IMG/VR virus record: IMGVR_UViG_3300024520_000223
Location: 1 to 37,505 of that record
Length of the DNA: 37,505 nt
Strand: one strand, 5' to 3'
Origin: a virus
The notes under the pieces are model-generated. The model worked only from the letters and a program-made list of their open reading frames with translations. It ran no database searches and was not told where the DNA came from. A program made the translations under genes and the position numbers. Below are positions 32,510 through 37,505 of the stretch, piece by piece. Positions within the stretch are counted from its first letter, which is position 1; the number at the start of each line of letters is the position of its first letter.

Positions 32510-32537
32510 ATTATACACATTTTGGACTGTTTGTCAA
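32510..32537 (-). promoter_or_regulatory. Promoter of the - strand recombination operon
   Basis: On the - strand, TTGACA (32532-32537) and TATAAT (32510-32515) are 16 bases apart, both perfect. Start near 32503, giving a 5' leader of about 70 bases with the hairpin 32457-32484. Confidence 0.75.
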
Positions 32538-32574
32538 GTCGGCTTTACGCAGAGGGACATTGCCCTTGACAAAC
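32529..32574. repeat. 10-bp inverted repeat covering two divergent -35 boxes
   Basis: GTTTGTCAAG at 32529-32538 is the exact reverse complement of CTTGACAAAC at 32565-32574. Each arm holds the TTGACA box of one of the two divergent promoters, so a single regulator could bind both. Confidence 0.7.
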
Positions 32575-32594
32575 TATGTAATATCCATTAGTAT
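32566..32594 (+). promoter_or_regulatory. Divergent + strand promoter for the small regulator
   Basis: TTGACA (32566-32571) is 17 bases from a weaker -10 (TAGTAT, 32589-32594). The expected start falls within a few bases of ATG 32602, so the transcript may be leaderless or nearly so. Confidence 0.55.
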
Positions 32595-32601
32595 AGAGGG
32601 C

Positions 32602-32850
32602 ATGAGTAATGAAAAAGTATTAAAAAATGACATTGCCTATATTTTAGGCATAACTCGCCAGTATTTTTATATGCTAGGGCGCGATGGGGTTTTATCCAGT
32701 GGTGATATAACCGTTAGTGAGTTACAAACAATCGTGTCTGAGTTTGTCAAAATTAAGCAAATGCGACTGGATAAGGAAAAGGAGCAAATTGAGCGGCGGC
32801 TCAAGATAATTCAGCAGCGATACACACCCAAGCTAGAAGTAACTATGTAG
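32602..32850 (+). CDS. Small HTH-like regulator (82 aa)
   Basis: The ATG at 32602 was chosen because the reading before it overlaps the divergent promoters. Residues about 10-35 (AYILGITRQYFYMLGRDG) look like a helix-turn-helix of a Cro/YdaS-type protein, and the C-terminal half is a charged coiled coil (RLDKEKEQIERRLKIIQQR) suitable for dimerisation. As the first gene from a divergent promoter pair whose -35 boxes lie in an inverted repeat, it is a plausible autoregulator of the lysogeny or early switch type. Confidence 0.55.
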   Translation: MSNEKVLKNDIAYILGITRQYFYMLGRDGVLSSGDITVSELQTIVSEFVKIKQMRLDKEKEQIERRLKIIQQRYTPKLEVTM

Positions 32851-32883
32851 GATTATCCGCATCGTCGGGATACTTGTTCCCTC

Positions 32884-32988
32884 TTATCCCTCCCCCTCTT
32901 GACTGGCGATGCGATCATCAATTTTGTTGTGGGGCTGCCTACCTTCTCTGGCGGCTTCACAGCAAAGCGGGTGATGTAGTCCGCTTAT
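32884..32988 (-). CDS. Possible 34-aa micro-ORF with AUA start
   Basis: On the - strand, an ideal ribosome binding site (AAAGGAGG) is followed 6 bases later by ATA 32988, which begins an open frame reading ISGLHHPLCCEAAREG and ending TAA at 32884. The frame looks protein-like, and a CC-E-A-A-REG motif is typical of short phage proteins. AUA is not a usual start. It may be a mutated or mis-sequenced ATG, or the site may be chance. Confidence 0.3.
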   Translation of the reverse strand: MSGLHHPLCCEAAREGRQPHNKIDDRIASQEGEG

Positions 32989-33080
32989 TGTTTACCTCCT
33001 TTTTGTTGAGGGGGCGGTTGAGATGACGGCCGTTCCCCCATTAAGGAGTAGTCTACTTTGGAGTATGTAACGTGAAATCA

Positions 33081-33155
33081 AGCCAGTGAGTCACAAAATT
33101 GTCAAGCAGACTTGTCTGCAACGGTGGCAACCATCTGCAATTGATGGCACTGGCT
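33081..33155 (+). ncRNA. tRNA-sized, tRNA-like module in the large RNA
   Basis: An 8-bp acceptor-like stem (AGCCAGTG with CACTGGCT) encloses exactly 75 bases. The 3' half is a 5-bp stem with a 7-base loop (CCATC, TGCAATT, GATGG; 33131-33147) placed directly against the acceptor stem like a T arm, and TGCAATT keeps the T-loop pattern U...A. The middle hairpin (33106-33119) has a 4-base loop, so there is no usable anticodon and this is not a functional tRNA. Confidence 0.5.
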
Positions 33156-33250
33156 CATGGGTATATACCGATTTTTGATGGTACGTGATCTGCAACACGC
33201 CCCTTTGCGGAGATGTTTCCGGATCATCGCAAAACCGGATTTAACAACAC

Positions 33251-33393
33251 GCCACCGGTGGCGAAAGTGGTCGCCACAATACCACCTGAGACTGAACGAG
33301 ATTTGACGGCGAAAGTCAGATAGAAAGCCGCTCGGCTCTACTCAAGGTCTGATGGATTTACCAGTTGGTTCGGTTCGACTCCGGCCGGTGGCT
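33251..33393 (+). ncRNA. Second tRNA-like module with expanded central domain
   Basis: GCCACCG (33251-33257) pairs with CGGTGGC (33386-33392) as an acceptor stem. A D-arm-like hairpin follows (33258-33277, loop AAAGTGGT), and the 3' end has the loop TTCGACT (33374-33380), a perfect T-loop sequence, on a partly paired stem. The region between, where an anticodon arm belongs, is replaced by a branched domain of about 65 nt (33284-33348 with two hairpins). It is not a normal tRNA. Confidence 0.45.
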
Positions 33394-33768
33394 CACACTG
33401 CGGAAACCATGACCGCCGTGTAAAACTATCCCAAATTGGTGACAGCCGGAGAGTACGGCATTACAGTATGGTTGGGTACATTTACCGCTGTTCTTAGGAA
33501 ATGCCAGTGGACGCTACTTAGTGCGAGTGGGGATGGCGACTTGCGACCGCCATCTTAAATGAGCAACGTTAAACCGCCCATATTAACAGAATAATAGCGG
33601 CATAAGAAACGGACTATGCAAAATCTCATGCGGGAGATTCAAGAGGCGTCGGCCACACTGTCTCCGAGTGCAAGCGAGTGTACATAGCTGGATAGGAGTA
33701 TACGCAGCCAAATTAGCGACTGGCCTATTATTCTGTTTTTAATACCTTTCCTTGCAGGAGCGATTGAA

Positions 33769-33993
33769 ATGTATACACTTGAACTTGCGAACTGTGAACA
33801 AATACTGCTGGATGAGATTGCCGACAAGGCGATGAGGCAAAAAGACGTTGCCCAGAGCTATGCACTGGCAATACTGTCTAGCGAAAAGCCTGACTGGATA
33901 GTTGTGAATAGGGCTATCATAGGACGCTGGTCACATTCAGGATTACAGCGCATAAAAAGGATGGCGTGGTCTGGTAAATGTTTTGATGATTAA
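33769..33993 (+). CDS. Small hypothetical protein (74 aa)
   Basis: The protein is helical (ELANCEQILLDEIADKAMRQ, DVAQSYALAILSSEKPDWIVVNRAIIGRW) with a basic C-terminal part ending KRMAWSGKCFDD. Ribosome binding site GCAGGAGCGATTGAA. It begins 30 bases after the closing helix of the structured RNA. I do not recognise the family; the helical core could be DNA-binding. Confidence 0.6.
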   Translation: MYTLELANCEQILLDEIADKAMRQKDVAQSYALAILSSEKPDWIVVNRAIIGRWSHSGLQRIKRMAWSGKCFDD

Positions 33994-34305: not shown

Positions 34306-34332
34306 TGGTGTCTGTGAGCCACCGAAGCGGCT
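34306..34332 (+). promoter_or_regulatory. Leader element copy 1 (hairpin before gene at 34354)
   Basis: The segment TTGGTGTC...GAGCCACCGAAGCGGCT (34305-34332) closely repeats 34681-34707. AGCC/GGCT and inner pairs form a small hairpin, about 20 bases before a ribosome binding site. The repetition ahead of two consecutive genes suggests shared regulation. Confidence 0.5.
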
Positions 34333-34353
34333 GTATAAACTTTGAAGGACAAA

Positions 34354-34668
34354 ATGAATAAGAATCAGCTTCCCTTGAACATTAGAGTACAAAAATTTAT
34401 AGTTGGTTATTTGGAAAATCATTATCATACTGATATTTGTGACACTCAACTCCACGATGAGTTTTTCCAGGAGTTTGGGGGAAAGAGGAAACGCGCAAAT
34501 TGGGGAGCAGAGCGTGTATACAAAATATCCTTTTGGTTAAAAAGACTTTTTGACGAAGGCGTTTTGGATCGGGGCATCGTCTCTCTCTCCGGAAGCTGGC
34601 ACCCTGGATTTCCGAAGTGGGTATATGGATACACACTGTCAAAATCGTGGAAAGCAAATGTCAAATAG
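34354..34668 (+). CDS. Winged-helix-like DNA-binding protein candidate (104 aa)
   Basis: The start chosen is ATG 34354 after GAAGGAC; an upstream TTG at 34342 has weaker support. The order of helices (RVQKFIVGYLENHYHTD, DTQLHDEFFQEFGG, AERVYKISFWLKRLFDEGVLDRG) followed by a two-strand end is like a winged helix. It is preceded by a leader element also found before the next gene. Confidence 0.5.
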   Translation: MNKNQLPLNIRVQKFIVGYLENHYHTDICDTQLHDEFFQEFGGKRKRANWGAERVYKISFWLKRLFDEGVLDRGIVSLSGSWHPGFPKWVYGYTLSKSWKANVK

Positions 34669-37148: not shown

Positions 37149-37505
37149 ATGAGTAATCAAAGATTTAGCATAACGCCAGCCAGCGCAGTATCAGATGAGA
37201 GTTTAACAGACAGCATTTATAGAACGCTGGCAGCAATTGGCCTATATGGTGATAAAAACGGGTGGTGTTGGCCGCGCCAGACTACGCTTGCAAAAATCAG
37301 GGGAGTATCAAGAAAGACAATCAATATCCACATTAAAGAATTAACTGGATTGGGCTACTTAAATATTCAGCCGCGCTACGATGAAGAAACAGGAGCGCAA
37401 AAAAGCAATATGATGCAGGTCAAATTCGATAATAATTATCAAAACGTTACGGGGGGTGTAACCCCTAGGAGGTTACAGGGGGGTGTAACCCCTAGGAGGT
37501 TACAG
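37149..37505 (+). CDS. HTH replication protein, N-terminal part (runs off window)
   Basis: ATG 37149 follows AGAGG. Residues about 20-80 form a winged-helix module typical of phage replication initiators (SLTDSIYRTLAAIGLYGDKNG, TTLAKIRGVSRKTINIHIKE LTGLGYLN). From about residue 101 the protein enters in-frame nine-residue tandem repeats GGVTPRRLQ encoded by 27-base repeats. Such proteins usually bind the phage origin and load replication proteins. Confidence 0.75.
   Translation, partial: MSNQRFSITPASAVSDESLTDSIYRTLAAIGLYGDKNGWCWPRQTTLAKIRGVSRKTINIHIKELTGLGYLNIQPRYDEETGAQKSNMMQVKFDNNYQNVTGGVTPRRLQGGVTPRRLQ
37451..37504 (+). repeat. Tandem 27-bp repeats in the replication gene, possible iterons
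   Basis: Two exact 27-base units (37451-37477, 37478-37504), with a third starting at 37505, lie in the replication gene and encode GGVTPRRLQ repeats. Each junction contains a dyad (GGTTACA ... TGTAACC, arms 37471-37477/37484-37490). This resembles the arrangement in lambda, where origin iterons lie inside gene O. The number of repeats beyond the window is unknown. Confidence 0.8.

Follow-up and report, generated by a model that had tools for sequence, protein, structure and literature searches.

Two tRNA-like modules lacking a normal anticodon arm in a gene-free gap of a siphophage genome: candidate non-decoding tRNA mimics

What two tRNA-shaped folds, neither of them with a normal anticodon arm, might do in a gene-free gap of a phage genome is the question raised by this locus. 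The window, i.e., the whole stretch of 37,505 bases of DNA that was analysed, comes from a siphophage (terminase, portal, protease, major head protein, and primase were found). The IMG/VR record G001 of 49,347 bp has the same sequence as the window and an exact 106-bp terminal repeat, and it contributes a part of the genome that is absent from the window. ARAGORN calls no tRNA in the window and none in the pieces carrying this missing part. At the window end (37484-37505) tandem repeats are encountered and the sequence departs from that of G001, a difference that suggests assembly trouble or a variable repeat.

The gap extends over 918 nt on the plus strand (32851-33768), is devoid of ORFs of at least 70 aa, being the largest such stretch among the pieces scanned, and is considered a candidate noncoding RNA region. 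Nine of the 12 listed stop-to-stop frames overlapping it were compared with Pfam and gave no match at the curated cut-off, on which grounds a degenerate protein gene was rejected; two weak Pfam matches in gap frames have E-values of 0.051 and 0.11. Directly upstream, an ORF for 82 aa of no known family (32602-32850, plus strand) is preceded by a sigma-70-like promoter directed towards the gap (TTGACA, 17 nt, TAGTAT; 32566-32594, plus strand), which is assigned by consensus match only, at 10 of 12 positions. A divergent sigma-70-like promoter matching at 12 of 12 positions lies on the minus strand at 32510-32537. Downstream, a 74-aa ORF follows (33769-33993, plus strand). Proteins encoded in the neighborhood, the 82-aa ORF among them, have relatives only in an identical phage, except for the 74-aa ORF, which has two relatives in other phages, and neither blastn nor a descriptor search finds such an RNA beside these two. 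Folding of the 906-nt region is more stable than that of its shuffles (z -2.28, 20 shuffles), mostly owing to the first 200 nt, as the 5' part (32851-33050, plus strand) folds strongly, with a long hairpin of about 16-17 bp and z of -5.07 and -4.59 in sliding segments. The last domain of the gap (33585-33737, plus strand) is closed by an inverted repeat of 13 bp without a mismatch (33585-33597/33725-33737) and has a T run behind it, and in the middle of the gap, the site of the larger tRNA-like module, folding energy is near background. Four of 400 Chloroflexota genomes match the hairpin region around GATGGCGACTTGCGACCGCCATC (33517-33553) over short lengths, the best one over 31 nt (E 2.8e-4).

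The larger module, here called module 2 (33251-33392, plus strand), is confirmed as a real feature at these positions. The first-pass annotation had described an acceptor-type helix of 7 bp (33251-33257/33386-33392), a D-arm-like hairpin with GG in its loop, and an exact T-loop TTCGACT, and all three are present. The seven acceptor pairs are Watson-Crick without exception, and sequence and enforced fold add an eighth (33258/33385), so that the helix comprises 33251-33258/33385-33392; its pair probability is 0.96-1.0 in three of four contexts and 0.70-0.73 in the fourth. The D-arm-like hairpin GGCG-AAAGTGGT-CGCC (33260-33275, plus strand) has a 4-bp stem (33260-33263/33272-33275; pair probability 0.91-0.97) and the loop AAAGTGGT. 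The T-arm TCGG-TTCGACT-CCGG (33370-33384, plus strand), with the T-loop at 33374-33380, is seen in the sequence at a pair probability of 0.09-0.32; its stem, formed in about one third of the ensemble, consists of four pairs, one of them G-T, and the fifth position is mismatched. Acceptor and T stem together would stack to 8 + 4 = 12 bp, as in tRNA, and the full tRNA-type fold (-50.3 kcal/mol) is less stable than the unconstrained minimum (-51.5) by 1.2 kcal/mol. In place of the anticodon arm, there is a branched insert of 94 nt (33276-33369, plus strand). Here the earlier description holds inasmuch as no normal anticodon arm exists, and the three-way junction that it had put in its place appears in the minimum-energy fold only. 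Overall stability of module 2 is unremarkable, with z of -1.63 for 33240-33400 and -0.69 for 33251-33410. The 24 nt at 33371-33394 match the 3' end of a tRNA-Thr gene from a Planctomycetota MAG at 23 of 24 positions, and in that MAG the tRNA-Thr 3' half occurs at L302:485-558 and again at L301 near 1501-1524 (G065 contig C97). Furthermore, all 12 nt of 33386-33397 are complementary to 34313-34324 in the space that precedes an ORF at 34342-34668, and 33321-33332 has an 83% complement at 34326-34337; from base complementarity, an RNA-RNA contact of module 2 with this space is possible.

Module 1 (33082-33154, plus strand) is tRNA-sized and consists of a 7-bp acceptor (GCCAGTG/CACTGGC), a T-arm with a 5-bp stem and the loop TGCAATT (CCATC-TGCAATT-GATGG), and, at the anticodon position, the hairpin GCAGA-CTTG-TCTGC (33106-33119, plus strand) of 5 bp with a 4-nt loop. 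A D-loop GG is not evident in it. Modules 1 and 2 both start with GCCA and finish with TGGC-TCA. An outer helix is predicted around module 1 (33063-33168, plus strand; 33063-33069/33162-33168 and 33071-33075/33155-33159), with pair probabilities of 0.61-0.99 locally and 0.46-0.93 in the full region, and since the acceptor of module 1 runs on into this helix, its ends may act differently from those of a free tRNA. The view of the first-pass annotation that two tRNA-like modules in a row are unusual is borne out, as both lie in one gene-free gap of the DNA and such an arrangement is rare, and the absence of a normal anticodon arm applies to both modules; its interpretation as a whole is partly supported.

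Modules of this kind exceed the chance expectation for the gap. When 20,000 dinucleotide shuffles of the gap were searched with a descriptor containing the D arm, 1 matched under the requirement of a Watson-Crick acceptor and 20 matched with G-U pairs allowed. A looser descriptor, comprising only acceptor and T-arm, gives exactly two matches in the window, 33082-33154 and 33251-33392, and none on its other strand; among 5000 shuffles of the gap, 11 contained at least one match and none contained two. In 738 kb of other phage DNA the same descriptor matched 11 times outside called tRNAs, corresponding to 0.007 matches per 918 nt on one strand. The descriptors were composed after the modules had been seen, though their parts are ordinary tRNA rules, and these chance figures are therefore somewhat optimistic.

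Searches for homologues yielded one other copy of the region, which is 100% identical and hence gives no covariation. In blastn of the 906-nt region against phages and plasmids only the identical phage was found, and module 2 alone gave one 26-nt match among phages (E 0.5). Fifty of 79 related viral records provided only matches of 14-34 nt (best E 0.025), the exact D-arm/T-loop pattern occurs in IMG/VR only in the identical phage, and 38 genomes with related terminases gave a tRNA-Thr match only. Short matches exist in 31 of 400 Chloroflexota genomes (best E 2.8e-4), and no homologue was established among them.

Two of the 11 matches in other phage DNA form a pair in a single phage, IMGVR_UViG_3300025949_000002 (G034), whose 49% terminase identity was the reason for using it as a control. 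Its 60,719 bases contain no match other than these (module A, L121:5919-6007; module B, L121:6189-6263), and both sit in a GC-rich stretch of about 737 nt (L121:5722-6458) with short ORFs only, which were judged implausible. Two matches were found in none of 5000 shuffles of this stretch, and in 170 partly overlapping loci (2.45 Mb) no pair of non-tRNA matches within 600 nt was seen other than this one and that of the window. The fold of module B is a complete cloverleaf with a 6-bp hairpin and the loop UGCA at the anticodon position; like module 1, it shows no evident GG of a D-loop. Two forms of module A can be drawn, an outer and an inner one, the latter (L121:5951-6010) with a 6 + 6 bp acceptor/T stack, a GG D arm, a T-arm, and a 9-nt linker replacing the anticodon arm. 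When module A is folded with its outer strand (L121:5915-6012), other pairings are preferred, which counts against it, and the folding z of the G034 region is -0.26. G034 and the phage of the window have the terminase group and an HNH protein in common and little else, their two module types follow each other in opposite order, and no integrase was found in G034. We regard G034 as a parallel to the window phage with homology unproven, and the two pairs may be independent.

A scan of 4.27 Mb of sequence for cloverleaves with anticodon loops of 3-6 nt gave 211 matches, 193 inside ARAGORN calls and 18 outside. Two of these 18 are one and the same site in the window phage itself, here called module 3 (L100:12598-12681, also in L008; 24997-25080 of G001), located outside the window in a short intergenic space, whereas some of the others appear by eye to be simple repeats or normal tRNAs whose stem was placed out of register. 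In module 3, a 7-bp acceptor lengthened to 9 bp is combined with a D arm, a variable arm, a T-arm with UUCAAUU, and a 7-bp hairpin with the loop UCGG at the anticodon position (fold z -2.60). It scores 23.8 bits with the Rfam tRNA-Sec model, below the gathering score of 47. If the stem is taken as 5 bp, the loop grows to 8 nt, and module 3 might then be a frameshift-type tRNA. Three modules thus have 4-nt loops at the anticodon position, i.e., module 1 (CTTG), module B of G034 (TGCA), and module 3 (TCGG). ARAGORN called none of the five modules under any of five settings. No further pair was found in 23 more loci (481 kb; prophages and phages with related terminases) or in 16 pieces (110 kb), and L102, a related phage with a long gene-free gap, has no such module.

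With a probability of roughly 0.35, we propose that the plus strand of the gap encodes a candidate noncoding RNA with two non-decoding tRNA mimics whose elbow attracts RNase P, RNase Z, or both. The mimics would keep the parts that these enzymes read, i.e., the 12-bp acceptor/T stack and the T-loop, plus the GG D-loop in module 2, and would dispense with a usable anticodon loop. Such an elbow could draw RNase P and/or RNase Z to the phage transcript, and cuts at the module edges might release RNA ends or fix their position, in the manner of mascRNA and MALAT1. We infer that the gap is transcribed, that the modules fold inside the cell and are cleaved, and that the phage benefits. In all five modules the elbow is kept and a normal anticodon loop is absent. 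Passages in PMC11693755 describe mascRNA as having a reduced D arm, a longer stem at the anticodon position and a compact loop, with an elbow built with two D-loop guanosines, and as being cut by RNase P and RNase Z, and part of PMC11143913 reports that model substrates consisting of acceptor and T-arm are cleaved by bacterial RNase P. It is because of this precedent and of such cleavage that processing signals or processed mimics are favored. Against processing, the sequences at the 3' sides, TCACA and TCATG, do not contain the RCC(A) preferred by bacterial RNase P, and the predicted outer helix continues the acceptor of module 1, unlike the end of a tRNA. Since RCCA is missing, module 1 has its outer helix, stability is ordinary, and no divergent homologue was found, we make no firm claim.

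The same loss of the anticodon loop with retention of the elbow in all five modules would also be expected of decoys, tRNA-shaped RNAs that bind synthetases, EF-Tu, or the anticodon nucleases of abortive defence and that can neither be cut nor decode. No tRNA is called in the phage itself, and the combination G1-C72, C2-G71, C3-G70 with T73 belongs mostly to tRNA-Thr in phage DNA (67/82 matches, 80 of 120 loci), although the tRNA library had been picked by a pattern that favors the Thr signature. Mimicry for binding to a synthetase is known from the thrS operator, but threonine identity also requires anticodon bases (both from passages of PMC9976931), and these are absent here. The acceptor of module 3 differs as well, and we find a decoy function rather unlikely. 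Nor do we claim a threonine origin of the modules, given the pattern-selected library and given that module 1, aligned in full to 540 phage tRNAs, does not score above its shuffles (52 of 300 reach its score). Phage tRNA genes are often gained and lost, and the modules might instead be decayed tRNA genes, relics without a present function. This would agree with the near-identity of the module 2 3' end to a real tRNA-Thr gene and with the anticodon hairpin of module 1, which resembles what we take to be a Thr arm with three bases missing. Decay should, however, strike all arms alike, yet the acceptor and T stems are intact, an argument that is partly circular as the descriptor demands these very stems; moreover, the same loss is common to five modules in two phages. 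To decay, too, we accord only a small chance.

Resemblance to a tRNA-Thr 3' end would equally be expected if module 2 were the attP core derived from a host tRNA-Thr gene and placed in a regulatory DNA region. The gap is gene-free, and the Planctomycetota MAG repeats the matching tRNA-Thr 3' end at a distance of 39.5 kb, as in an integrated element. The corresponding 25-mer (at most one mismatch) occurs in none of 294 Planctomycetota and none of 400 Chloroflexota genomes, however, and the D-arm, the 5' acceptor strand, and module 1 would be left unexplained. As neither a tyrosine integrase nor a serine recombinase was found in the window or in G001, the attP reading, which we consider very improbable, was rejected. 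Coincidental folding in a gene-free and partly repetitive gap would account for the near-background folding energy and for an acceptor that reuses the palindrome GCCACCGGTGGC, and the post hoc construction of the descriptors speaks for it as well. Shuffles and real DNA as controls, the recurrence of a pair in G034, and the third cloverleaf in the phage of the window argue against coincidence and make it quite improbable.

It is conceivable, though short of probable, that the non-decoding mimics represent a new class of phage noncoding RNA, in which paired tRNA mimics have the anticodon loop exchanged for a tetraloop or another domain, and which occurs in unlike phages, escapes tRNA finders, and uses the host machinery for tRNA processing or tRNA binding beyond decoding. 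Among the open-licence PMC papers listed by literature searches, no title or abstract deals with paired tRNA-like modules in phage RNA, which does not by itself prove novelty. Mimicry of tRNAs is already well known from plant RNA viruses and mascRNA. If the modules are functional, they would extend it to DNA phages by means of anticodon-less RNAs that standard annotation misses, raising the question of whether RNase P and RNase Z serve as scissors for phage transcripts or whether phages make tRNA-shaped decoys.

Compared with known systems, the modules share with canonical tRNAs the 12-bp stack and the T-loop TTCRANY, exactly in module 2 and at 6 of 7 positions in module 1. They lack the 7-nt anticodon loop on a 5-bp stem, in place of which module 1 has a 4-nt loop on 5 bp and module 2 the 94-nt insert, and neither ARAGORN nor the Rfam tRNA model calls the modules of the window. 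The topology of tmRNA comprises an acceptor, a T-arm, and a large domain replacing the anticodon arm, with G3-U70 and A73 for alanine identity. Module 2 is like tmRNA in this topology, the tmRNA side of the comparison being general knowledge, and unlike it in having a D stem, C3-G70, T73, and only a 94-nt insert; neither ARAGORN nor Rfam makes a tmRNA call, which would include a tag reading frame and pseudoknots. GOLLD is a large phage noncoding RNA whose linker sometimes holds tRNAs, according to part of PMC12286853. The present candidate would likewise be a large noncoding RNA in a phage, as are GOLLD and ROOL, but its inserts are tRNA-like and not tRNA genes, and its stability is modest beyond the first 200 nt. 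The identities of tmRNA, GOLLD, and ROOL were rejected as no Rfam match was obtained. T4 RNAC and RNAD, described in a portion of PMC9697503 as small phage RNAs of unknown function, can be likened to the modules by description only. In contrast to the thrS-operator mimic, there is no threonine anticodon, since the loop of module 1 is CTTG and module 2 has no anticodon arm. The tRNA-like structures of plant viruses terminate an RNA genome on its 3' side and undergo aminoacylation. The modules described here lie inside a DNA phage genome, with no CCA encoded after the acceptor, and resemble the plant-virus structures in the 4-nt loop at the anticodon position, as in the tRNA mimic TLS-Tyr of BMV with its 4-nt pseudo-anticodon loop (in passages of PMC9976931). 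The mascRNA-menRNA model of Rfam (RF01684) has no match in the window, and module A of G034 reaches 23.1 bits with it (E 0.15), below the gathering score of 42.5. Unlike the phage modules, mascRNA and menRNA are products of human lncRNAs; they lie, as the phage modules would, within a long noncoding transcript and combine an elbow of acceptor and T-arm with a reduced D arm and a hairpin of long stem and compact loop. An elbow of this type with a compact hairpin at the anticodon position is found in modules 1 and 3, and module 2 combines the elbow with a large insert.
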